Position numbers and translations under genes: made by a program. Below the pieces are notes generated by a model. The model ran no database searches, had not been told where the DNA came from, and was given only the letters and a program-made list of their open reading frames with translations. Shown one piece after another: positions 35,342-45,263 of a stretch of DNA of 64,000 bases. The DNA is from an uncultured Ruminococcus sp. (GTDB lineage Bacteria > Bacillota > Clostridia > Lachnospirales > Lachnospiraceae), in contig CAJFQC010000003.1 of assembly GCA_904418845.1 (NCBI GenBank), positions 1 to 64,000 of the forward strand. The letters run 5' to 3'. The first letter of the stretch is position 1. Each line of letters begins with the position of its first letter.

Positions 35342-35573
35342 AAAAAGCGGTCGTACCAGACGACCGCCCTTATCTTTCGTAATTACCCAAAATGCCGGTC
35401 CTGTATTTTGAGTCCTAGCCACAGCTAGGTGGGCAACCGCATCTGCTTTTCTGTCGTCCACTGCATAACGGAGGCCTGACATATTACAGAAATATAGGAA
35501 TCCCGTTTAAACAAATGTAGGTTCAAAATTACAGGGTTATCGAACATCTCAGGTTGACTTCCTAATTAGCTCT
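35342..35573 (-). ncRNA. ssrS: probable 6S RNA (SsrS)
   Basis: A 232-base transcription unit with its own promoter and terminator but no reading frame. Its ends pair: CCTGTA-A-TTTTGA on the 5' side with TCAAAA-TACAGG on the 3' side. They enclose a long, largely open middle, as in the 6S RNA closing stem and central bubble. The stretches ACGGGATTCCTAT, ATGTCAGGCCTCCG and GCCCACCTAGCTG agree with my memory of clostridial 6S RNAs. It ends in the GCGGTCGT/ACGACCGC hairpin followed by five U. 6S RNA holds sigma-A RNA polymerase in stationary phase. The 5' end is estimated from the promoter. Confidence 0.7.
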
Positions 35574-35579
35574 ACAAGT

Positions 35580-35608
35580 ATTATACTCTGATTCTTACTT
35601 TTTTACAA
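35580..35608 (-). promoter_or_regulatory. promoter of the 6S RNA
   Basis: On the minus strand, TTGTAA (35603-35608), a 17-base spacer and TATAAT (35580-35585), placed between the end of the catalytic hydrogenase gene and the RNA. Confidence 0.7.
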
Positions 35609-35672
35609 CTGATTCTTTTTTCCATCTGATATTATCCGTCTACTGCTCTGCCTTTCTGTCCGTTTTGCTTAT

Positions 35673-37421
35673 TTAGTTGATCGTCCTCTTTACATATGTC
35701 GTATGAAGGATATGATGCGCCTTTTCGCTTCCCGGAGCGCCGAGATACTCACTGTATACTTTCTTGATGGACGGATTCTCGTGAGATTTCCTGATCTTCT
35801 TCGCCGCATCGTTGTCGTACAGCGCTTTCGCGCGGATTACCCTTACATCCTCAAAGTTGCGCACCTCCGCGTGTACCTGAGGCTGTCCGCCGCCGTTGAC
35901 ACATCCGCCCGGGCAGCACATAATCTCGATGAAATGATAATCCGCCTCTCCGGCGCGTATCTTATCCATGATAACCTTAGCGTTGGACAATCCGGAAGCC
36001 ACCGCGATCTTTACATCCATTCCTGCCACGTTGTATGTAGCTTCTTTGATGCCTTCTGTTCCGCGCACTTCCATGAATTCCGGTTTTTCCAGCATCTCGC
36101 CTGTCAGCTCTTCAACCGCAGTACGAAGGGCTGCCTCCATAACGCCGCCTGTCGCGCCGAAGATGACGCCCGCTCCTGTGGACTCGCCAAGCGGATCGTC
36201 AAATCCTTCCTCCGGCAGACTCCTGAAGTTGATTCCTACCTTGCGGATGAGCCGTGCCATTTCTCTTGTCGTGATAGAGATATCTACATCCGGCACTCCG
36301 GCTGCGTACTGGTCGTCTCTCTGAAGCTCAAACTTCTTCGCCGTACACGGCATCACGCTGACGCATACAATATCTTCCGGCGCAATGCCCATCTTCTCTG
36401 CGTAATAAGTCTTTGTGATCGCTCCGAACATCTGCTGCGGTGATTTACAGCTTGACAGATGTGCAAGCTGATCCGGGTAGTAGTGTTCGCAGTATTTGAT
36501 CCACCCCGGTGAACAGGAGGTCAGCATCGGCAGCACGCCGCCGTTTTTCACGCGGTCAAGGAACTCGTGCGCCTCTTCCATGATCGTTAAGTCCGCGCTG
36601 AAATTAGTATCGAATACCTTGTCAAATCCGACTCTTCTAAGGGCTGCTGCCATCTTTCCTTCCACATCTGTTCCCATAGGATAGCCGAACTCTTCACCTA
36701 ATGCCGCGCGTACTGCGGGAGCAGTCTGCACGACCACATGTTTTGTCTCGTCAGCGATCGCCTCAAGGACATCGTCGATATTGCTCTTCTCATAGAGCGC
36801 TCCTGTAGGACATGCCGTGATACACTGACCGCATCCCACGCAGCTCGTATCTCCAAGCCCCATCTCGAACGGAGAGCCGATAAATGTTGCGAATCCTCTG
36901 TTGTTCGGTCCGATAACGCCTATGCTCTGCACCCTCTCGCACACTGCGGAACAACGGCGGCAGAGAATACATTTATTGTTGTCACGCACCAAATGTACTG
37001 CGCTTTCATCCAGCTCATAATGCGGACTCTCACCTTCGAAATAATTCTCGTCTGTCACGCCCATCTCCTGACAGAGCGCCTGGAGCTCACACTGACCGCT
37101 GCGCACGCAGGAGAGGCATTTTTTATCATGATTGGACAGAAGAAGCTCCAGCGTTCTTCTTCTGGAATCTAAAAGCTTCTTCGTGTTGGTCTGCACTTCC
37201 ATCCCCTCAGATACGGGATGCACACACGCCGCCACAAGGTTTCTCGCACCCTTGACTTCCACAACACACATACGGCATGCGCCGATCTCATTGACCTCTT
37301 TTAACCAGCACAGCGTGGGGATACGGATACCCGCCGCCTGCGCCGCCTCGAGGATCGTAGAACCTGCGGGTGCAGTTACATTCAAGCCGTTAATCTTTAA
37401 ATTCACCATTTCCATATTCAC
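35673..37421 (-). CDS. [FeFe] hydrogenase catalytic subunit, NADH-dependent trimeric type (HydA/HndD-like)
   Basis: 582 residues. An N-terminal 2Fe-2S domain uses Cys38, 49, 52 and 66. Next come the His/Cys cluster segment CLSCVRSGQCELQALC, two 4Fe-4S motifs (KCILCRRCSAVC and SCVGCGQCITACP) and the H-cluster domain. H-cluster motifs are L1 TSCSPGW, L2 VMPCTAKKFE and L3 EIMCCPGGCVNGGGQP; a short C-terminal domain follows. In L1 the second cysteine of the classical TSCCPxW is serine. With the NuoE- and NuoF-like subunits it should couple NADH and ferredoxin oxidation to H2 formation, or the reverse. It follows the NuoF-like gene after nine bases and is the last gene of the operon. Confidence 0.96.
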   Translation of the reverse strand: MNMEMVNLKINGLNVTAPAGSTILEAAQAAGIRIPTLCWLKEVNEIGACRMCVVEVKGARNLVAACVHPVSEGMEVQTNTKKLLDSRRRTLELLLSNHDKKCLSCVRSGQCELQALCQEMGVTDENYFEGESPHYELDESAVHLVRDNNKCILCRRCSAVCERVQSIGVIGPNNRGFATFIGSPFEMGLGDTSCVGCGQCITACPTGALYEKSNIDDVLEAIADETKHVVVQTAPAVRAALGEEFGYPMGTDVEGKMAAALRRVGFDKVFDTNFSADLTIMEEAHEFLDRVKNGGVLPMLTSCSPGWIKYCEHYYPDQLAHLSSCKSPQQMFGAITKTYYAEKMGIAPEDIVCVSVMPCTAKKFELQRDDQYAAGVPDVDISITTREMARLIRKVGINFRSLPEEGFDDPLGESTGAGVIFGATGGVMEAALRTAVEELTGEMLEKPEFMEVRGTEGIKEATYNVAGMDVKIAVASGLSNAKVIMDKIRAGEADYHFIEIMCCPGGCVNGGGQPQVHAEVRNFEDVRVIRAKALYDNDAAKKIRKSHENPSIKKVYSEYLGAPGSEKAHHILHTTYVKRTIN

Positions 37422-37430
37422 TGCCCTCCC

Positions 37431-39218
37431 TTATTCCTTATAGATCGCGCCAAACCGGCATTTCTCCATGCAGGCGCCGCACTTCAAACATTTCTCCGGG
37501 TTAATCATATGTTCTTCTTTTACCTTGCCGATGATCGCGTCAGCCGGGCAGGTTCTCGCACAGAGAGTACATCCCTTACATTTATCTGGATCGATTTTGT
37601 ACTGCAGAAGATCCTTACAAACTCCTGCGGGACATTTCTTATCTACAATATGGGCGATATACTCATCCCTGAAATATCTCAGCGTGGAGAGCACCGGATT
37701 GGGCGCGGTCTGTCCAAGGGCGCACAGGGAGTTGGACTGTAAGTGATAACACAGCTCCTCCAGCTTATCCAGGTCTTCCATAGTCGCCTGGCCCTTGGTG
37801 ATCTTTTCAAGGATCTCCAGCATACGCCTCGTTCCGATACGGCACGGCGTACATTTACCGCAGGACTCATCTACCGTGAACTCAAGGAAGAACTTTGCGA
37901 TATCCACCATACAGGTGTCCTCATCCATAACAATCAGGCCGCCGGAACCCATCATAGAACCGATGGCGATAAGGTTATCATAATCAATTGGCACATCCAT
38001 GTGCTCTGCCGGGATGCATCCGCCGGAAGGTCCGCCTGTCTGGGCCGCCTTGAACTTCTTCCCGTTCGGCACGCCGCCTCCGATCTCTTCTACGATCTCG
38101 CGCAGCGTCGTGCCCATGGGGATCTCCACAAGACCCGTGTTATTGATCTTGCCGCCAAGGGCGAATACCTTTGTTCCTTTGGATTTCTCCGTGCCCATGG
38201 AAGCGAACCACTCCGGACCATTGACGATGATCTGCGGAATGTTCGCGTAAGTCTCTACGTTATTTAAAATGGTCGGTTTCTGGAACAGACCCTTAAGAGC
38301 CGGGAATGGCGGACGCGGACGGGGCTCGCCTCTGTTTCCTTCGATGGAAGTCATAAGAGCCGTCTCCTCACCACAGACAAATGCTCCCGCTCCGAGCCTT
38401 AACTCGATATCAAAATCAAATCCGCTGTCAAAAATATTTTTGCCCAGCAGTCCGTACTCTCTCGCCTGGTTGATGGCGATATCAAGACGTTTTACCGCGA
38501 TGGGGTACTCCGCGCGCACATAGATATATCCCTGGGAAGCGCCGATGGCATATCCCGCGATAGCCATAGCCTCCAGTACCGCATGGGGGTCTCCCTCTAA
38601 GATAGAGCGATCCATGAACGCGCCCGGGTCGCCCTCGTCCGCGTTACAGCAGACGTATTTCTGATCCGCTTCATTTGCCGCCGCGAATTTCCACTTCATT
38701 CCCGTGGGAAATCCGGCTCCCCCACGTCCTCTTAAGCCGCTGTCAAGAAGTGTCTGGATCACATCCTGTGGCTTCATCTCTGTGAGGACCTTGCCAAGCG
38801 CCTCATATCCTCCCGTACCTATGTATTCATCAATATTTTCCGGGTTGATCACGCCGCAGTTTCGAAGCGCCACCCTGTGCTGTTTCTTATAGAAATTCGT
38901 CTCGTTGAGCGGGATGATCTTATCTGACTTTGTCGTCTCATCATAGAGAAGACGGGTAACAACTCTTCCCTTCAAAAGATGCTCGGATACGATCTCCGGG
39001 ATATCATCCTCCTGGACCATAGAGTAAAATGTCCCTTCCGGGTACACGATCATGATCGGCCCTAAAGCGCAGAGCCCGAAGCATCCGGTCTTAACTACGC
39101 CGACTTCATCAGAAAGCCCGTTCGCCGAGATCTCTTTCTCCAGTCTCTCTATGATCCTGTGGCTTCCGGAGGAGGTACATCCGGTTCCGCCGCAGACAAG
39201 TACGTGTGAACGATACAT
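37431..39218 (-). CDS. NuoF-like NADH-binding subunit of the hydrogenase (HydB/HndC)
   Basis: 595 residues in three parts. An N-terminal thioredoxin-like 2Fe-2S domain (VCGGTGCTSSGSHRI and KTGCFGLCALGP) comes first. The FMN/NADH-binding core has LRGRGGAGFPTGMKW, CNADEGDPGAFMDRS and the Cys motif ESCGKCTPCRIG with LCALGQTAPNPVLS for one 4Fe-4S. A C-terminal two-cluster ferredoxin (CKGCTLCARTCP and CLKCGACMEKCRF) ends it. It takes electrons from NADH and, by bifurcation, links to ferredoxin. It sits 20 bases after the 2Fe-2S protein gene and nine before the catalytic subunit. Confidence 0.97.
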   Translation of the reverse strand: MYRSHVLVCGGTGCTSSGSHRIIERLEKEISANGLSDEVGVVKTGCFGLCALGPIMIVYPEGTFYSMVQEDDIPEIVSEHLLKGRVVTRLLYDETTKSDKIIPLNETNFYKKQHRVALRNCGVINPENIDEYIGTGGYEALGKVLTEMKPQDVIQTLLDSGLRGRGGAGFPTGMKWKFAAANEADQKYVCCNADEGDPGAFMDRSILEGDPHAVLEAMAIAGYAIGASQGYIYVRAEYPIAVKRLDIAINQAREYGLLGKNIFDSGFDFDIELRLGAGAFVCGEETALMTSIEGNRGEPRPRPPFPALKGLFQKPTILNNVETYANIPQIIVNGPEWFASMGTEKSKGTKVFALGGKINNTGLVEIPMGTTLREIVEEIGGGVPNGKKFKAAQTGGPSGGCIPAEHMDVPIDYDNLIAIGSMMGSGGLIVMDEDTCMVDIAKFFLEFTVDESCGKCTPCRIGTRRMLEILEKITKGQATMEDLDKLEELCYHLQSNSLCALGQTAPNPVLSTLRYFRDEYIAHIVDKKCPAGVCKDLLQYKIDPDKCKGCTLCARTCPADAIIGKVKEEHMINPEKCLKCGACMEKCRFGAIYKE

Positions 39219-39238
39219 ATTTTCTTGCCTCCTTTTCG

Positions 39239-39622
39239 TTATGCATTATTATTCTGTGCAGCGCTCAGCGTATATTTGGTCACGATCTGGCCGCCCAGTA
39301 AGTGGATACGCAGCACTTCGAGCGCTTTCTCCGGATCCATCTTCACATAAGTCACTTTTTCTTTGCCCGGCTCCATCACTTCCACGATGGGCTCATACTG
39401 GCACAGTCCGATACATCCTGTCTGTGTCACGCTGATCCTGTCAGATAAATTCTGCTCCTGAACCGCGTCGGAAAGAGCTGTCAGTACCGGTCTTGCCCCG
39501 CTTGCAATCCCGCAGGTAGCCATTCCCACCACCACGCGAGTCTGGTTCTCATTCTCTGCGCGGACTCCGACCTTGCCCTGCATCTTCTCTCTGATCGCGC
39601 GTAATTCTTCAAGAGATTTCAT
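39239..39622 (-). CDS. 2Fe-2S ferredoxin-domain subunit (HndB-like)
   Basis: 127 residues. A helical start (KSLEELRAIREKMQGKV) is followed by a thioredoxin-like 2Fe-2S fold with cysteines in VGMATCGIASGARPV and QTGCIGLCQYEP, four in total. This matches HndB, the small electron-transfer subunit of NAD(P)-reducing [FeFe] hydrogenases. The gene lies between the HATPase protein and the NuoF-like subunit of the same operon, 15 and 20 bases away. Confidence 0.94.
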   Translation of the reverse strand: MKSLEELRAIREKMQGKVGVRAENENQTRVVVGMATCGIASGARPVLTALSDAVQEQNLSDRISVTQTGCIGLCQYEPIVEVMEPGKEKVTYVKMDPEKALEVLRIHLLGGQIVTKYTLSAAQNNNA

Positions 39623-39637
39623 AGTAGTCCTCCTTTT

Positions 39638-40198
39638 CTATATATCGGCTCCTTTGTCCGTCTCCAGTTTGTTCGTCTCCAGATATTCTTTGATGAACGC
39701 GGAAACCTGCGCCTCCTTAAAAGAAATATCTTCCCCAAGCACCTCCCGCATTTCTCTTGTGTCCAGTACGAAGCTGTCCTGTCCGTACTCATATGTATAT
39801 CGGAAATCAATGTGCTCATTGAATACGATCAGCGTCTGGATCGTAGAGCTGATATCACCCAGCGGCATCCTGTCAATATGCGACAGACCGAACACCGCTT
39901 TTACTGTTGTTCCCTTCCCTTTTTCTGAATCGATCTGAAAGCTGCCGTCCGTGCTCTCCGCCGCCTGCTTGAAAAACGGAACTCCAAGCCCCACCTTTCT
40001 CGTGGTCCTTGTCGTGAAAAACGGATCCTGCACGCTTGCCGCCTGTTCCGGCGTCATTCCGCAGCCGTCGTCCTTGATGATAACGGTCAGCGTATCGTCC
40101 TCTGGCTGCACAGACACTATGATCTCCACAAGAGATGCGTCCGCCCGCACAGAATTCTCCGCAACATCCAGAATATTCAGAGAGATCTCCGGCATCAT
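39638..40198 (-). CDS. GHKL ATPase-domain protein in the hydrogenase operon
   Basis: 186 residues. Histidine-kinase-type ATP-binding features are NILDVAENSVRADA (N box), IIKDDGCGMT (G1 box), TTRTTRKVGLGVPFFKQAAE (G2-like) and GKGTTVKAVF. There is no dimerisation/phosphoacceptor domain and no membrane segment. It is not a hydrogenase subunit, yet it lies between the NuoE-like and HndB-like genes with gaps of 4 and 15 bases. A regulatory kinase-like or anti-sigma-like function tied to the hydrogenase is inferred. The ATG at 40198 is followed directly by a second ATG, so the start could shift by one codon. Confidence 0.9.
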   Translation of the reverse strand: MMPEISLNILDVAENSVRADASLVEIIVSVQPEDDTLTVIIKDDGCGMTPEQAASVQDPFFTTRTTRKVGLGVPFFKQAAESTDGSFQIDSEKGKGTTVKAVFGLSHIDRMPLGDISSTIQTLIVFNEHIDFRYTYEYGQDSFVLDTREMREVLGEDISFKEAQVSAFIKEYLETNKLETDKGADI

Positions 40199-40202
40199 AC
40201 GC

Positions 40203-40697
40203 TTACTCGTACTTTGCCAGGATATCGTCCAGATCGTCCACTGTCAGACGTCCATAGACTTCGTCATTAATCATCATGACCGGAGCAAGTCCACAGGCGC
40301 CGACACAGCGGCACGCATCCAGTGAAAATTTACCGTCCGGCGTACACTCTCCGCCCACAATGCCCAGTTTTTCCATCAGGGCATTGTAGATATCTCCAGA
40401 GCCTTTTACATAACACGCCGTACCAAGACAGACAGAGATTCTGTATCTGCCCTTCGGACTCAACGTGAACTGCGAATAAAATGTCGCCACTCCATAGATC
40501 TTCTCCATGGATATCCCCGTCTCGTCCGAGATCATCTTCTGAACTTCGATCGGAAGATAACCGTATATATCCTGTGCTTTCTGCAGGATCGGCATAAGAG
40601 CACCTTTGTCATCCTTGAGCTCGCGGATTACTTGCATGAGTGCCTCTTCCTGTTCTTTTGTCCCGGAAAATGGAACTGTTCCTTTCTTAGCTGCCAT
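40203..40697 (-). CDS. NuoE-like 2Fe-2S subunit of the hydrogenase (HydC/HndA)
   Basis: 164 residues. A helical N-terminal part (LMQVIRELKDDKGALMPILQKAQDIYGYLP) is followed by a thioredoxin-like 2Fe-2S domain. Its four cysteines are in VCLGTACYVKGSG and LDACRCVGACGLAP. VATFYSQFTLSPKGRYRISVC is the family signature before the first cysteine. It passes electrons within the trimeric hydrogenase. First gene of the operon; its promoter lies in the divergent region to the right, where a TATAAT sits inside a palindrome. Confidence 0.96.
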   Translation of the reverse strand: MAAKKGTVPFSGTKEQEEALMQVIRELKDDKGALMPILQKAQDIYGYLPIEVQKMISDETGISMEKIYGVATFYSQFTLSPKGRYRISVCLGTACYVKGSGDIYNALMEKLGIVGGECTPDGKFSLDACRCVGACGLAPVMMINDEVYGRLTVDDLDDILAKYE

Positions 40698-40816
40698 TCT
40701 TCAACCTCCATTTCTCTTCCTTATACGACCGCACATGAACAAGAGTTCGGCAGTCAATAAGATATATTTTGTGCTCATTAGGTTTATGATATCACAAGAT
40801 ATTACAAAATACCACT

Positions 40817-40871
40817 TGTTTATTATAAACATTTTGTATATATCATACTATTTATTTCAATAGTTGAAATA
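40817..40871. promoter_or_regulatory. divergent control region with two palindromes between the hydrogenase operon and the signalling cassette
   Basis: TGTTTATTATAAACA (40817-40831) overlaps a minus-strand TATAAT (40822-40827) that fits the hydrogenase promoter. TATTTCAATAGTTGAAATA (40853-40871) is a 19-base palindrome between the two units. A third near-palindrome, with arms ATGCAAAAAAGC and GCTTTTTGCAT, lies around 40878-40909, just before the plus-strand promoter candidate (TTGCTT, 17 bases, TATACT). The 317-base gap 40698-41014 has no other visible feature. Binding proteins are unknown. Confidence 0.55.
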
Positions 40872-41014
40872 TCTATATTATGCAAAAAAGCCATTTATTG
40901 CTTTTTGCATATCCAAATGTTATACTGACCTTACATAATGCACAGTTGTTTCTATGTCCGAAAAACCATTATTTCAGCTGTGCACCCGGCAAAAATATTT
41001 TTCAGGAGGGGCTT

Positions 41015-41359
41015 ATGACGATCAAAGAAATGCAGAAAGTCCTGAACGCACAATTTCTTTACGGAGAAGAGCTTGCGGATCTGGACGCACAATTTGTTTT
41101 TTCCGCTGATATGATGAGCGATGTCCTCGCTTACTGCGGCAGATGTTCAGTACTCATCACAGGGCTGTGCAACCCACAGGTAGTCCGCACCGCGGAAATG
41201 CTGGACATTGTCTGTATCATCTTCGTGCGCGGAAAGATGCCTGATGACAACATGCTTGCCCTCGCCCGGGGGAAGGGCATCTCTATTCTCGCTACAGACC
41301 ACTACATGTTCACCACATGTGGTATCCTGTATGAAAACGGGCTGCGGGGAGGTGCTTAG
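41015..41359 (+). CDS. DRTGG domain protein (first copy)
   Basis: 114 residues. The whole protein is one DRTGG-like domain (as in the regulatory halves of Pta and CBS proteins), with FVFSADMMSDVLAYCGRCSVLITGLCNPQVVRTAEMLDIVCIIFVRGKMPDD and GISILATDHYMFTTCGILYENGL. I chose the ATG at 41015, because CAGGAGGGG stands directly upstream. It opens a plus-strand cassette of five genes and touches the next gene with no gap. Two cysteines lie close together at CGRC. Its ligand is unknown; a partner or small-molecule sensor role is inferred from its family. Confidence 0.88.
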   Translation: MTIKEMQKVLNAQFLYGEELADLDAQFVFSADMMSDVLAYCGRCSVLITGLCNPQVVRTAEMLDIVCIIFVRGKMPDDNMLALARGKGISILATDHYMFTTCGILYENGLRGGA

Positions 41360-41782
41360 ATGAGCGATCAGCTTATATTTACTTACGAGATCGACGGTGA
41401 AGACTTCACCCGCGCGGGGGAAGCCAGCAGCTCCGTGAAAAACAAGCTTAAAATGCTGGGCGTGGACAGCGACGCTATCCGGAAAGTGGCCATCGCCATG
41501 TACGAGGGCGAGATCAATATGGTCATCCATGCGAAAGGCGGAACGATCACAGTGGCCGTCTCCGACGATGATATCACCATGGTGCTTGCGGACAAAGGCC
41601 CGGGAATACCGGATATCGACAAAGCCATGCAGGAGGGATACTCCACTGCCAGAGAAGAAGTGCGCTCTCTCGGATTCGGCGCGGGGATGGGTCTGCCCAA
41701 CATGAAGCGTTTCACAGATGAGATGAAGATCGACACAGTGATCGGACAGGGCACCACTATCACCATGAAGGTGCATCTCTGA
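41360..41782 (+). CDS. RsbW/SpoIIAB-type ATP-binding (anti-sigma-like) protein
   Basis: 140 residues, a GHKL ATPase of serine-kinase/anti-sigma type. IAMYEGEINMVIHA holds the N box, VLADKGPGIPDIDKAM the G1 box and LGFGAGMGLPNMKRF the G2 region; GQGTTITMKVHL ends the fold. Start and stop abut the first DRTGG gene. No sigma factor or STAS antagonist is nearby, so its target is open. Its position between a DRTGG protein and a hydrogenase-like protein suggests it relays a redox or H2 signal. Confidence 0.9.
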   Translation: MSDQLIFTYEIDGEDFTRAGEASSSVKNKLKMLGVDSDAIRKVAIAMYEGEINMVIHAKGGTITVAVSDDDITMVLADKGPGIPDIDKAMQEGYSTAREEVRSLGFGAGMGLPNMKRFTDEMKIDTVIGQGTTITMKVHL

Positions 41783-41832
41783 CAGTTCATCCATACACTG
41801 ATAAGAATTTCAATGAAAGGGGGCGTCCGCTC

Positions 41833-43236
41833 GTGGAAAAAAATAAATTCATGCGCTCCGTACGTCTTAGGGAGGCCGACTGCCAGGGTTGTATCAACTG
41901 CATCAAATATTGTCCCACACAGGCGATCCGGGTACATAACGGCAAGGCGCATATCATAGACAAATTCTGCATCGATTGCGGCAGATGCATCCGCTACTGC
42001 CCTCATCATGCCAAGATCGCGGTCTATGATCCACTTTCCGTTATTAATAATTTCAAATACACCGTGGCTCTGCCCGCCCCGTCACTCTATGCGCAGTACA
42101 ATAACCTGACCAATGTAGACATCATCCTGAATGCTCTTTTAAAGCTGGGCTTTGACGATGTGTACGAGGTGAGCGCCGCAGCAGAGCTGGTATCTGAGGC
42201 GTCGAGAAAATACATAAAGGAACACCCCGACGGAGTTCCTTTTATCAGTTCGGCCTGTCCTTCTGTGATCCGGCTGATTCGGGTAAAATTTCCCTCTCTG
42301 ATTTCCCGTCTTCTGCCTATCAAGGCTCCGGTGGAAGTGGCGGCCGAGATCGCGCGCGCAAGAGCTATGGAAAAGACTGGTTTAAAGTCTGAGGAGATCG
42401 GTATCATCTTCATCTCCCCCTGCCCCTCCAAAGTGTCTTATGCCAAGTCACCTCTGGGGATTGAGAAGAGCAACATCGATAATGTCATTGCCATCAAGGA
42501 TGTATATCCACTCCTTCTGCCGCATATGAAGCATGATGAGAGTCAGCTGAAACCCCTCTCCCACTCAGGCAGAATCGGGATCGGCTGGAGCAACGCAGGC
42601 GGGGAAGTAGCGGGGCTGCTGACTGAGAATTACCTTGCCGCGGACGGCATTGTAAATATCCTGCGGGTGCTGGAAGAACTGGAGGATGAGAAGCTTCACG
42701 GCCTTACCTTTGTAGAGCTCAGCGCCTGCAACGGTGGATGTGTAGGCGGCACGCTCACTGTGGAAAATGCGTACATTGCCACTACAAAGACAAAGCGCCT
42801 CATCAGATATCAGCCGGTATCTAAAAACCATCTTGCTGAAAATCCTGAAGTCAGCAATCTTTTCTGGGCTGATGACGTGGAATATGAACCTGTATTCCGT
42901 TTAGGCAATACATTTAAAGAAAGTCTGAAGATGATGAATGATGTGGAGAAACTGGCCTCCAGATTCCCTGGACTGGACTGCGGCTCCTGCGGGGCACCTA
43001 CCTGTCAGACTCTGGCGGAGGACATTGTGCGGGGCGACGCAACGCCTAATGACTGCATATATGTCCTGCGCGCCAATATTGCGGATCTGTCCCGCAAAAT
43101 CGCCGCGCTGACGCAGGATAAAAATACGGATGAAGGCATAAGTCCCGGCGACTCAGAGCTCCTTGACTCCTATATACGGACGCTGACCGCGGAGCTTGCG
43201 TCTTTCGGCGTGCCGGAGCGTCCCAAAAACAGGTGA
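41833..43236 (+). CDS. H-cluster-domain protein, putative sensory [FeFe] hydrogenase (group C/D-like)
   Basis: 467 residues. Two N-terminal 4Fe-4S motifs (Cys17/20/23/27 and 46/49/52/56) precede an H-cluster domain. The four cluster cysteines remain: Cys142 in FISSACPSV, Cys197 in ISPCPSK, and Cys299 and Cys303 in ELSACNGGCVGG. But Ala141 stands where catalytic enzymes have the proton-relay cysteine, and Ser297 replaces the L3 methionine. A CxxCx4Cx16C 4Fe-4S domain (383-408) follows, then a helical tail. As I recall, such changes mark slow, sensory hydrogenases. GTG start behind AAAGGGGG, 50 bases after the RsbW-like gene. Confidence 0.88.
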   Translation: MEKNKFMRSVRLREADCQGCINCIKYCPTQAIRVHNGKAHIIDKFCIDCGRCIRYCPHHAKIAVYDPLSVINNFKYTVALPAPSLYAQYNNLTNVDIILNALLKLGFDDVYEVSAAAELVSEASRKYIKEHPDGVPFISSACPSVIRLIRVKFPSLISRLLPIKAPVEVAAEIARARAMEKTGLKSEEIGIIFISPCPSKVSYAKSPLGIEKSNIDNVIAIKDVYPLLLPHMKHDESQLKPLSHSGRIGIGWSNAGGEVAGLLTENYLAADGIVNILRVLEELEDEKLHGLTFVELSACNGGCVGGTLTVENAYIATTKTKRLIRYQPVSKNHLAENPEVSNLFWADDVEYEPVFRLGNTFKESLKMMNDVEKLASRFPGLDCGSCGAPTCQTLAEDIVRGDATPNDCIYVLRANIADLSRKIAALTQDKNTDEGISPGDSELLDSYIRTLTAELASFGVPERPKNR

Positions 43237-43307
43237 CGACACTGTACAATCACAAAGACAGTATATTTTCAAATCACCCTACATTTTCAGGAAAGGATAA
43301 CAGATCT

Positions 43308-43640
43308 ATGAAATTACAAAAAATATCAGAACTGCCCGAATGTCGTACTCTTTCCGGAGGCGACCCAAACAGAACCGTCTCCCGCGTATTCTGCTGCGAC
43401 CTCTTAAGTATTGCCATGAGCAAAGCCCCTGCGGACGGGGTATGGGTGACTGTGATGGGGAACAAGAACACCCTCGCCGTGGCGTCCCTCACAGATATAG
43501 CGTGCATCGTACTGGCGGAGGGCGTTTCCCTTGATGAAGGAACGCTTGCTAAAGCCAAAGAAGAAGGGATCGCTGTGCTCGCTACAGAGCTTCCCATATT
43601 CGATATCGCGCTTGAGATCCATCAGGCGGGTATGGAATGA
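43308..43640 (+). CDS. DRTGG domain protein (second copy)
   Basis: 110 residues, again a single DRTGG-like domain: SRVFCCDLLSIAMSKAPADGVWVTVMGNKNTLAVASLTDIACIVLAEGVSLDE and GIAVLATELPIFDIALEIHQAG. It differs strongly from the first copy in sequence but shares its order of strands. I chose the ATG at 43308, because AAGGA lies ten bases upstream; longer in-frame starts have no ribosome site. Overlaps the PHP gene by four bases. The two DRTGG copies may form a heteromeric ligand sensor; that is inference. Confidence 0.85.
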   Translation: MKLQKISELPECRTLSGGDPNRTVSRVFCCDLLSIAMSKAPADGVWVTVMGNKNTLAVASLTDIACIVLAEGVSLDEGTLAKAKEEGIAVLATELPIFDIALEIHQAGME

Positions 43641-44368
43641 TCCCTCTTTATTATGATCTCCACATTCATTCCTGCCTTTCCCCATGCGGGGATGATGACA
43701 TGACGCCGGCAAACCTAGTGGGCATGGCCGCCATAAAAGGGCTGGACGTGATTGCGCTGACGGACCATAACTCCTGCGCCAACTGTCCTGCTGCCGTTTA
43801 TCACGGAGAAAATTACGGAGTCACTGTGATCCCCGGCATGGAACTGACTACCGAAGAAGAGGTTCATGTAATATGCCTGTTCTCCTCTCTTGAAAATGCT
43901 CTTGCCTTTGATGCTCTTGTATATGACAGGCTCATGCCCATCCCAAACCGCGAGGATATTTTCGGAAAACAGCAGATTATGAACGAAGAGGATAACATCA
44001 TAGGCACTAAAAAAAAACTGCTCATTAACGCCACCTCCATTTCCTTTGACGAGGCTTTCCCACTTGTGGAATCATATGGAGGTATTGCCTACCCGGCACA
44101 TGTAGATAAATCCTCCACAAGCCTTATATCCAACCTGGGATTCGTGCCGCCGCAGAGCACATTTACCTGTGCGGAATTCCATGATTTCAAAAATCTGCAC
44201 AGCCTCAGAAAAGCACACCCGTATTTTGGAAAATGCAATGTGATCTGCTGTTCGGACGCGCATTATCTGGGAGACATCCATGAGCCCGAACACCAGCTTT
44301 TCACCGAATCCCGGAGTATGGAGCACATTTTTAAAGCACTCACAGCAAGTGCATGCACAGAGGATTGA
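43637..44368 (+). CDS. PHP domain phosphoesterase
   Basis: 243 residues with the metal-binding motifs of the PHP family: DLHIHSCLSPCGDDDM, VIALTDHNSC, VIPGMELTTEEEVHVI, GGIAYPAHVDKSS and VICCSDAHYLGDI. It should be a soluble metal-dependent phosphoesterase; nucleotide or dinucleotide turnover is possible, but no substrate is visible. ATGA overlap with the second DRTGG gene shows translational coupling, so it belongs to the cassette. It converges with the LysR gene after 16 bases, with no clear terminator. Confidence 0.9.
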   Translation: MIPLYYDLHIHSCLSPCGDDDMTPANLVGMAAIKGLDVIALTDHNSCANCPAAVYHGENYGVTVIPGMELTTEEEVHVICLFSSLENALAFDALVYDRLMPIPNREDIFGKQQIMNEEDNIIGTKKKLLINATSISFDEAFPLVESYGGIAYPAHVDKSSTSLISNLGFVPPQSTFTCAEFHDFKNLHSLRKAHPYFGKCNVICCSDAHYLGDIHEPEHQLFTESRSMEHIFKALTASACTED

Positions 44369-44384
44369 TAGATAAAAAGAATTA

Positions 44385-45263
44385 TCACTCCTGCCCTGCA
44401 AGGCGGATAAACTCTTCCACCTCAGGAGTTTTCCACTTATTCGTATGATAAAAGATCTGCCGGTATAAACTCTTCTGGAACTCCGGCACATCCAATATGG
44501 AAAGACGCCCTTCATCCACACTGTCCTGGACAGCAAACCTCGGAAGATAGGATATCCCTCTGTCTCTTTCTATCATTTTGATAATAAACTCCGTGTTGCT
44601 GATCTCCAGAAAGGGCGTGATTTCAATATCTTTTGACTCCAGAAAATTATCCAGTTCCCTCCGGTAATTTTCATTTCGCTCTGTCAGGAAAAACGGTCTG
44701 TCCAGCAGTTGATGCAAGGTGATCTGCCTGCGTTGTGCCAGATCGGACCCAGCCGAAGCCACAAAAACTATGGGCTCTTCTATCTCCATTACTTTATTCC
44801 ACCTGTCACTGTACCGCGGTCTGTCAAGAATATAGATCAGATCCAGGCGGTTATTTTCCATCATTTCTATTAACTCTTTCGGTGTGGCTGTCGTGATCTG
44901 AACAGCCACCTTCGGGTGATGTTCCCTGAAATAGAACAAAATTTGCGGAAGCTTAGAAAAACAAAGCGACTCCAGGGTTCCGATGTGGAGAGGAGCGTGT
45001 AATTCGCTCTCCAGTCTCATAAAATGCTTCGCCCTGTTCATTTCTCTGATAATCGTATTCGCATAGTCCAAAAACTGTCTGCCCTGTGCGGTAAGTTCAA
45101 TTCCCTTCCCCATCCTGTCAAACAGTTTTGTATTTAGTTCATGTTCCAGAAGCCTGATCTGAACGGTCACGGCGGACTGGGAATACCCGAGATACTCTGC
45201 CGCTTTTGTAAAACTTTTTGTCTGTGTGGCTGCCACAAAGGTCTGAATCTGTCTTAATTCCAT
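44385..45263 (-). CDS. LysR family transcriptional regulator
   Basis: 292 residues. The winged helix-turn-helix is MELRQIQTFVAATQTKSFTKAAEYLGYSQSAVTVQIRLLEHELN, followed by TAQGRQFLDYA. A type-2 periplasmic-binding-like effector domain covers residues about 90-292. It is divergent from the symporter and serine dehydratase genes, which it most likely controls, perhaps sensing serine or a related amino acid (inference). Two TATGA/TCATA-type inverted repeats sit in the shared 180-base promoter region. Confidence 0.93.
   Translation of the reverse strand: MELRQIQTFVAATQTKSFTKAAEYLGYSQSAVTVQIRLLEHELNTKLFDRMGKGIELTAQGRQFLDYANTIIREMNRAKHFMRLESELHAPLHIGTLESLCFSKLPQILFYFREHHPKVAVQITTATPKELIEMMENNRLDLIYILDRPRYSDRWNKVMEIEEPIVFVASAGSDLAQRRQITLHQLLDRPFFLTERNENYRRELDNFLESKDIEITPFLEISNTEFIIKMIERDRGISYLPRFAVQDSVDEGRLSILDVPEFQKSLYRQIFYHTNKWKTPEVEEFIRLAGQE

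Follow-up and report, generated by a model that had tools for sequence, protein, structure and literature searches.

A conserved gene unit around a putative sensory group D [FeFe] hydrogenase as a candidate redox relay for ferredoxin/NAD-coupled enzymes

[FeFe] hydrogenases of group D (M2e) are putative sensors that keep the H-cluster cysteines and have an altered proton path, features given for TamHydS of Thermoanaerobacter mathranii (PMC8163306; this and the other PubMed Central papers below are cited from excerpts). Group D HydS proteins are described as slow H2 enzymes with low catalytic rates, an H-cluster of unusual properties and partners yet to be named (PMC8163306, PMC13104023), and an alternative proton path with E252 and E289 has been studied (PMC10407848). 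In published gene clusters a trimeric hydrogenase follows the group D gene, in many cases separated from it by a gene for a histidine/serine kinase, and a regulatory relation has been proposed (Carere et al. 2012, PMC3561251; Thermoanaerobacter survey, PMC3608648). The link between a group D hydrogenase, a kinase-like gene and a trimeric hydrogenase is thus already published. Here we analyse a locus of this kind in a stretch of 64,000 nucleotides from an uncultured Ruminococcus sp. (contig CAJFQC010000003.1, positions 1 to 64,000; "the window"). On its plus strand lies a cassette of five genes: D1, W, S, D2 and P, where D1 and D2 encode DRTGG-domain proteins (DRTGG1 and DRTGG2), W a GHKL ATPase, S the HydS protein and P a PHP-family protein. 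It faces a minus-strand hydrogenase operon, with the order NuoE-like, K (a second GHKL protein), F2 (a small [2Fe-2S] protein), NuoF-like and HydA. Both gene sets had been named in an earlier annotation made from the sequence (the original prediction); all five genes of the operon and all five on the plus strand are present as named. The cassette is probably a conserved redox-signalling unit for ferredoxin/NAD-coupled enzymes.

The original prediction described S as an "altered H-cluster protein" and noted that sensory-type [FeFe] hydrogenases lack the normal proton-relay residues; at those positions the window protein does match the published putative sensory group D enzymes. Across 140 aligned HydS proteins (one per locus, window included; residue equivalences taken from an alignment with 8a6t), the H-cluster cysteines C142, C197, C299 and C303 are present in every sequence, as are the eight cysteines of the N-terminal cluster, which form two [4Fe-4S] motifs. 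The C-terminal Cx2Cx4Cx16C motif (C383, C386, C391, C408) is found in 139/139. The position of the group A proton-relay cysteine (Cys299 in CpI numbering; HydS 141) is Ala in 122/140 and Ser in 14/140, and the Met353-equivalent position (HydS 195) is Ser in 103/140 and Thr in 35/140. Two glutamates, Glu258 (136/140) and Glu295 (140/140), probably correspond to the alternative-path residues E252 and E289 of PMC10407848. The Pfam scan of the window HydS finds Fe_hyd_lg_C, an N-terminal 4Fe-4S dicluster and a C-terminal iron-sulfur (FeS) domain, and no PAS domain. Judged by motifs and gene context, the protein looks like a putative sensory [FeFe] hydrogenase of group D (M2e).

A conserved gene set around HydS

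D1, W, D2 and P form a conserved unit with HydS. The first 80 loci of our sample are the best matches listed from a species-genome scan; they are close relatives, hence not independent. Among the matches listed, Mediterraneibacter species and Lachnoclostridium sp. An169 are found at 85-91% HydS identity, so that a gut anaerobe of this sort is the probable host. Further loci come from whole-genome searches. HydS pieces below 250 bits are excluded from locus counts, and our labels L, G and f stand for loci, genomes and families. HydS loci with flanking sequence (at least 1.5 kb upstream and at least 2.5 kb downstream) number 126. Of these, 125 have W and 118 have D1 upstream, D2 is downstream in 118 and P in 109, and all four are found in 107. 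Keeping one locus per 70%-identity HydS group gives a non-redundant set of 84 loci, 76 of them with flank; here the counts are 75 for W, 70 for D1, 70 for D2, 62 for P and 61 for all four. W is immediately upstream of S for 118 of 127 S matches. That tally covers 128 D1 genomes, before the weak ones described below were dropped, and 127 of the 129 S matches entered it; of the two left out, one is the latter half of the HydS that is split in G196, and the other belongs to a different hydrogenase in G465 (E 4.9e-64). The gene arrangement is far beyond chance.

The same set is recovered from co-occurrence in 299 genomes of one phylum. The numbers of genomes with a match are 127 for W, 125 for K, 120 for S, 117 for D1, 115 for P and 110 for D2. 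For D1 there were initially 128 genomes, of which 11 weak ones (best E 8.7e-13 to 6.7e-21) were dropped as DRTGG2 cross-hits, judged by position where listed and otherwise by score. At least one of the six genes is carried by 133 of the 299 genomes, and of these 92 carry the full set and 110 lack at most one gene. Pairwise phi values for D1, W, S, D2, P and K range from 0.80 to 0.94. Since K co-occurs about as tightly as the others, we rejected a cassette of five genes only. K is found in 114 of the 120 HydS genomes.

Gene order gives K a second attachment. Long-flank loci, with at least 7 kb on both sides, number 95 for HydS, and 77 of them have NuoF or HydA no more than 9 kb from HydS (45/61 non-redundant). 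The linkage of cassette and hydrogenase that the original prediction proposed to check by gene order therefore exists. K is within 9 kb of HydS in 74 of the 77 loci with NuoF/HydA and in only 7 of the 18 without, and we rejected K as a plain cassette gene on the second of these counts. Among the seven long-flank loci with neither HydS nor NuoF/HydA, K comes directly after D2 or P in five (L121, L122, L173, L174, L175). By genome-wide co-occurrence K is the sixth member of the cassette, and in gene order it bridges cassette and enzyme. The second GHKL ATPase had been assigned to the hydrogenase unit; its location there stands, but the gene also co-occurs with the cassette and is linked to both units.

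The relative orientation of the two units varies. Of 55 non-redundant loci with both genes, 35 have NuoF downstream on the same strand; in 18 it is upstream and on the other strand, the layout of the window. The divergent layout of the window is one variant, and a co-directional run of ten genes is commoner.

Fusions, sub-modules and conserved residues

Five kinds of fusion join neighbouring genes. D1-W fusions are seen at L150, L163 and L213, with joint frames of 270-314 amino acids in nine genomes (five of f66, three of f117, one of f96). S-D2 fusions (L140, L212) come from two genomes of f62, and P-K fusions (L132, L214) have frames of 425-441 amino acids in six genomes of f41. A W-S fusion (L126) and a K-F2 fusion (L143) complete the set. 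A Pfam re-scan confirms both halves in four of the fusions (L126, L140, L132, L163). Because such natural gene fusions join them, the cassette proteins may be in contact with one another. Read in this way, the fusions argue for a HydS placed between W and D2, and for K beside both P and the 2Fe-2S protein of the enzyme operon.

Other lineages keep only part of the set. D2-K is found without the other four genes in three genomes (G200, G327, G400), D1-W is alone in two (G231 and G428, the latter 75% complete with a contig that ends at W), and in four genomes of f104 W-S is apart from D1-D2-P-K. Because D2-K and D1-W occur alone and f104 splits W-S from the rest, the sequences suggest that each GHKL protein has its own DRTGG protein, in the pairs W-D1 and K-D2, to which S and P have been added. 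In the S-less cassettes of G312, G344 and G285, W has an N-terminal pair of CBS domains (Pfam-checked for L121); in the S-less G204, G231 and G353 it has none. CBS-W is also found alongside S (L141, L171). The CBS-CBS-W fusion gives W a second input, possibly a nucleotide-sensing one. A decaying cassette in G232 (L218:3165-4927) has D1, D2 and K that look intact, fragments only of HydS and PHP, and a W that is undetected, a pattern that fits, in one genome, a joint loss of S, W and P.

W is a putative kinase with the conserved residues of the SpoIIAB-type GHKL fold. The catalytic-type Glu E49, N53, D78, G80, G82, G105, G107, G109 and G111, which include the G1 and G2 boxes, are invariant in 150/150 sequences, and the four matches to solved structures are all to anti-sigma F factor (SpoIIAB); the alignment was made to 1til. 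The scores are below the NCBIfam cut-offs for both spIIAB, the anti-sigma F model (62.8 against 135 bits), and RsbW (26.8 against 145). K starts with its ATPase domain, and its Pfam matches are of HATPase type only, with no DHp phosphoacceptor domain.

The two DRTGG proteins each have an invariant serine. In D1 it is Ser35 (150/150), which follows a conserved Asp and two hydrophobic residues (mostly D-M/L-M-S); in D2 it is Ser34 (141/141), mostly in D-L-L-S. A predicted model of D1 has a predicted local distance difference test score (pLDDT) of 89.3, and its nearest match is the DRTGG protein AF1212 (2IOJ; template modelling score, TM-score, 0.84), followed by the CBS-DRTGG region of a pyrophosphatase and then by HPr kinase. 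In the model the invariant Ser is near the start of a helix that follows a strand. In AF1212 the residue aligned with the D1 Ser is a Gln, and a Ser follows it.

P is invariant at H9, H11, H44, E69, H77 and H155 (127/127) and at D207 and H209 (125/125), positions that we take to be the PHP metal ligands. Its predicted model (pLDDT 95.1) has among its nearest solved folds EndoQ, the putative phosphoesterase 3e0f and RNase AM. It falls below the cut-offs of the NCBIfam subfamilies TrlF (56.8 against 350), nucleoside bisphosphatase (40.5 against 400) and RNase RNM (35 against 375).

Candidate outputs, a possible relay and its alternatives

The cassette has several kinds of enzyme neighbour. We counted them in 102 long-flank cassette loci, taking NuoF or HydA as the hydrogenase mark, so that formate-dehydrogenase loci with NuoF are included. 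Where S is present, NuoF/HydA is found in 72 loci, NuoF/HydA together with RnfC in 4, RnfC only in 5, and neither in 11. Where S is absent, RnfC is found in 3, RnfC with NuoF/HydA in 3, and neither in 4. The S-less loci include L118, so scored despite HydS fragments, and L173-L175, from genomes that have W-S elsewhere. RnfC is found in 15/102 in total. A formate dehydrogenase alpha subunit is present at L132, L145, L146, L154 (= L219), L210 and L214, from six genomes of families f35, f41, f81 and f95, and these cassette loci also carry NuoF. In the one example scanned, L210, the alpha subunit scores 682 bits against NCBIfam TIGR01591 (cut-off 666). Because the unit also adjoins Rnf, or formate dehydrogenase with NuoEF-type subunits, and sometimes does so without HydS, the candidate output is ferredoxin/NAD-coupled enzymes and not hydrogenase alone. 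The original prediction had the hydrogenase operon as the output. It is the usual neighbour; as the sole output we rejected it, with RnfC and the formate dehydrogenases of four families as further candidates.

Clustering of the neighbours over the non-redundant and S-less loci gives 21 clusters that occur in at least 5 loci, with identities read by eye. The largest are FolC (24 loci), ValS (17), RnfC (16) and other [FeFe] hydrogenases (15), then a small membrane protein and RnfD with 15 loci each, followed by Rex (14) and an ABC ATPase (13). The labels of RnfC, RnfD and Rex were verified by Pfam or NCBIfam with one example each.

Some single loci show settings of their own. At L120:9160-14211, which has no HydS, D1, CBS-W and a 2Fe-2S (F2) protein come directly before RnfC-RnfD-RnfG. 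At L117:5527-7983 an FAD/NAD-binding subunit of a sulfide/dihydroorotate dehydrogenase-like family (NCBIfam PRK06222) is beside D1-W, as are Rex and, by reading, a cytochrome-like gene. In f104, the gene adjoining W-HydS at L193:6534-8447 encodes a protein of 637 amino acids whose first half matches [FeFe]-hydrogenase models and whose last part matches methyl-accepting chemotaxis models, possibly for H2-directed movement. Hydrogenase-like proteins with a C-terminal GHKL ATPase match are found near the cassette at L140:13643-15979 (778 amino acids) and L212:14469-16772 (767 amino acids), apparently sensors fused to a kinase; at L212 the gene is followed by what reads as a response regulator-like gene. 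A second, distinct [FeFe]-hydrogenase-like protein is near the cassette in 15 loci, such as L171:16106-18790. It is perhaps a group C sensor, which would place two sensors side by side.

We propose that D1, W, S, D2, P and K make up a six-protein H2/low-potential redox relay that would control ferredoxin/NAD-coupled enzymes. HydS would bind H2 at its slow-turnover H-cluster, change conformation and gate W and D2, being in contact with both, the kinase at one side and DRTGG2 at the opposite one. The two GHKL-DRTGG pairs, W-D1 and K-D2, would act side by side. By analogy with SpoIIAB/RsbW, W would phosphorylate the invariant Ser of D1, and K may do likewise to D2; PHP, for which one family has a fusion with K, would strip the phosphate and reset the switch. 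The neighbouring enzyme would read the state of the DRTGG proteins by direct contact, and its activity would follow the H2/ferredoxin/NADH poise. We place the readout at contact because K is fused to the 2Fe-2S subunit in one genome and no DNA-binding domain was matched. Transcription may be set separately by Rex, with a Rex gene or operator-like sites beside the cassette in some loci. That HydS is the H2 or redox sensor of the unit seems to us fairly probable; to the six-protein relay as an explanation we give even odds, and the chemistry of Ser phosphorylation and PHP reset is doubtful. About as doubtful is a new class of phospho-relay, in which two GHKL kinases would each switch their own DRTGG protein via the invariant Ser, PHP would be the phosphatase, the input would be interchangeable (hydrogenase or CBS), and HydABC, formate dehydrogenase and Rnf would be tuned by contact.

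Several observations weigh against the relay. K tracks the hydrogenase more than it does the rest of the cassette, as the counts of 74/77 and 7/18 above indicate, and in G370 it is part of a hydrogenase operon that stands apart from the cassette (L164, L217). With its cut-off of 1e-18 the D2 search undercounts D2, missing D2 genes found by profiles in L146, L153 and L157. The W-S and K-F2 fusions each come from a single genome. Ten of the 102 long-flank cassette loci have no S, and 11 loci with S and 4 without adjoin neither NuoF/HydA nor RnfC. In f104, W-S is split from the other genes and sits with two-component genes or with the hydrogenase-chemotaxis fusion, which points to more than one output. 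Among solved structures, the closest relatives of P are enzymes of nucleic acids or nucleotides, or uncharacterised proteins, and not phosphoprotein phosphatases. A phosphoacceptor role is not known to us for any DRTGG domain, and the invariant DRTGG Ser could instead cap a helix or bind a ligand.

The likeliest alternative is a nucleotide signal, which we consider possible though unlikely. Here the DRTGG proteins, with the CBS domains where these are fused to W, would bind an adenine-type nucleotide, PHP would hydrolyse the same nucleotide, the GHKL proteins would be conformational switches rather than protein kinases, and HydS or the redox state would modulate the response. The CBS-DRTGG region of pyrophosphatase among the nearest solved folds of D1, the existence of CBS-CBS-W fusions, and the proximity of PHP to EndoQ, RNase AM and other nucleic acid/nucleotide PHP enzymes (with a weak match to nucleoside bisphosphate phosphatase) all fit such a scheme. 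However, in the pyrophosphatase, as far as the excerpted source goes, the nucleotide binders are the CBS domains, and D1 and D2 have none; the catalytic-type Glu of W is invariant, and would be needless for a mere nucleotide switch.

More unlikely is the transcriptional reading of the original prediction, in which W would be an anti-sigma-type or two-component-linked kinase and the output would be expression of the adjacent operons. W does resemble SpoIIAB, and in f104 the genes on either side of W-S include those of a response regulator and a histidine kinase. Rex genes are also found next to the cassette: of 160 loci scanned, 9 have one no more than 300 bases 5' of D1, three of them overlapping by 4 bases; that of L150 is on the minus strand, 5' of the D1-W fusion. 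Rex-box-like sites (at most one mismatch to the consensus) are present in 13 of 59 divergent intergenic regions, compared with 0.2 in shuffled sequences and about 1 in AT-matched windows taken from these loci; scrambled palindromes give a mean of 0.65 and a maximum of 4/59. But the sites fall to 4/19 in non-redundant divergent regions and to 1/91 upstream of D1 in the other loci (0.2 in shuffles), and the best match in the window has 4 mismatches. Rex control of the divergent region is likely in some relatives, to judge from these sites, and is unsupported in the window. The cassette proteins themselves speak against this reading. No DNA-binding Pfam model matches in the five plus-strand proteins and K, and because of this we do not favour transcription as the direct output. 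W is also well short of the anti-sigma F cut-off. No sigma factor, STAS antagonist or PP2C phosphatase was recognised by eye among the 21 recurring neighbour clusters, for which no family-model search was made, and with no such partner recognised we rejected W as a classical anti-sigma factor for our preferred account.

It is improbable that the unit serves assembly or repair, with GHKL and DRTGG proteins chaperone-like for iron-sulfur-rich bifurcating complexes and HydS an H-cluster carrier or auxiliary electron-transfer subunit. The linkage to several iron-sulfur-rich complexes, the K-F2 fusion, and HydF-like genes near 5 loci (a by-eye reading) are in keeping with it. On the other side, W is of the anti-sigma-kinase type, PHP is left unexplained, cassettes exist without a nearby hydrogenase and without HydS, and TamHydS is, in the excerpts of PMC8163306, a functional slow hydrogenase with an altered proton path. 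Stable ancestral synteny without joint function, to which the recurrence of FolC and ValS nearby might point, is highly improbable, as the orientation and separation of cassette and hydrogenase vary while the set holds together, genes are fused, and presence and absence are correlated genome-wide.

Genes of the window and comparison with known systems

Table 1. Features of the hydrogenase operon, the cassette and the region between them in the window.
Feature	Coordinates	Strand	Basis
HydA, [FeFe] hydrogenase catalytic subunit, electron-bifurcating type; candidate output enzyme	35673..37421	-	Pfam Fe_hyd_lg_C and Fe_hyd_SSU
NuoF-like (HydB), FMN/NAD subunit; candidate output enzyme	37431..39218	-	Pfam Complex1_51K, NADH_4Fe-4S
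F2, small thioredoxin-like [2Fe-2S] protein	39239..39622	-	weak Pfam 2Fe-2S_thioredx
K, HATPase_c (GHKL) protein inside the hydrogenase operon	39638..40198	-	Pfam
NuoE-like (HydC), [2Fe-2S] subunit	40203..40697	-	Pfam 2Fe-2S_thioredx, 177.6 bits
Palindrome of 15 bases, TGTTTATTATAAACA, divergent intergenic region	40817..40831	.	read from sequence
Sigma-A-like promoter TTGCTT-N17-TATACT for the cassette	40898..40926	+	block conserved across window and 6 aligned relatives
D1 (DRTGG1), DRTGG-domain protein, 114 amino acids, D-M-M-S35-D motif	41015..41359	+	Pfam DRTGG
W, RsbW/SpoIIAB-like GHKL ATPase, putative Ser/Thr kinase	41360..41782	+	Pfam HATPase_c_2
S (HydS), putative sensory [FeFe] hydrogenase of group D (M2e); starts with GTG	41833..43236	+	Pfam, motifs
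D2 (DRTGG2), DRTGG-domain protein, 110 amino acids, D-L-L-S34 motif	43308..43640	+	Pfam DRTGG
P, PHP-family metallophosphoesterase	43637..44368	+	Pfam PHP

The features of the window are collected in Table 1. HydA scores 917.8 bits against NCBIfam FeFe_hydrog_A6 (cut-off 765), and with the NuoF-like and NuoE-like subunits in the same operon the enzyme is a trimeric HydABC, for which bifurcating activity is predicted. F2 is just under the cut-off of Pfam 2Fe-2S_thioredx (24.3 against 24.8 bits), and the NCBIfam 2Fe-2S ferredoxin models are also below theirs. D1 reaches 34 bits against Pfam DRTGG (cut-off 25.2; scored on the longer open frame from 40880), and the window D2 is slightly below that cut-off with 24.9 bits, while a HydS-D2 fusion elsewhere reaches 25.7. 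The start of the gene block had been put at 35342, where there is no gene boundary. The cassette begins 317 bases from the hydrogenase operon. From conservation in relatives and Shine-Dalgarno-like sequence, the most likely starts of D1 and D2 are the ATG codons at 41015 and 43308, not the first start of each frame. The tight packing reported for the plus-strand genes holds at two of the four junctions, D1/W (0 bases) and D2/PHP (4-base overlap), and fails at W-HydS and HydS-D2, where there are 50 and 71 bases. A 4-base overlap of HydS and DRTGG2 would require the GTG at 43233, which has no evident ribosome-binding site and is outside the conserved part, and we rejected it. The intergenic palindrome is not preserved as a palindrome in 6 aligned close relatives.

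Directly after the cassette, at 44385-45263 on the minus strand, is a gene for a LysR-type regulator; its best NCBIfam match is a selenium-metabolism LysR, below the cut-off. The relatives L038, L039 and L042 have a response regulator-like gene in this position. The genome of the window has five [FeFe]-hydrogenase domain matches, HydF above its cut-off, a Rex homologue and RnfC, and because HydF is present the H-cluster can plausibly be made.

The genes that co-occur with HydS are candidates for the partners that pass on the signal of a group D hydrogen sensor, and co-occurrence and fusions rank them as W and D2, then D1, P and K. Because in some lineages the same unit adjoins Rnf or formate dehydrogenase, the question widens from H2 production to the ferredoxin/NAD energy balance of anaerobes. 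This is where, in the gut, the rumen and industrial fermenters, electrons are split among H2, formate, ethanol and ATP. Our searches of the Creative Commons-licensed PubMed Central literature, a scope that most subscription papers lie outside, gave no account of the DRTGG pair, PHP, the fusions or cassettes beside Rnf and formate dehydrogenase.

Four known systems bear comparison with the cassette. W shares with SpoIIAB/RsbW the GHKL fold, the catalytic Glu and the Mg-binding Asn, and there are small partners with an invariant Ser and a phosphatase-like enzyme in the unit. In SpoIIAB/RsbW partner switching the roles beside the kinase belong to STAS and PP2C proteins, whereas here DRTGG would stand for STAS and PHP for PP2C, there are two GHKL ATPases, and no recurrent sigma factor was recognised. 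The DRTGG fold is shared with the CBS-DRTGG region of pyrophosphatase (3l2b, 3l31) and with AF1212 (2IOJ), and CBS domains are joined in some lineages; unlike the pyrophosphatase, the cassette has no pyrophosphatase domain. The group C (M2f) PAS hydrogenases (HfsB, R. albus HydS, TmHydS) are similar in their proposed H2/redox sensing and regulatory link to other hydrogenases (PMC11837493) and in their C-terminal FeS domain (PMC8163306, PMC13104023), but group D lacks PAS, and its small partners are encoded by genes of their own. TamHydS of group D (PMC8163306, PMC10407848, PMC13104023) is alike, with the four H-cluster Cys kept, the proton-path Cys replaced, Ser/Thr at the Met353 position, a C-terminal Cx2Cx4Cx16C motif, no PAS domain, and a place beside a trimeric bifurcating hydrogenase. 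The excerpts of PMC3561251 and PMC3608648 describe their gene clusters with no DRTGG or PHP gene, co-occurrence test, fusions or other output enzymes. The unit analysed here, in contrast to TamHydS as described, has a co-occurring DRTGG pair and PHP, gene fusions, and Rnf or formate dehydrogenase as alternative neighbours.

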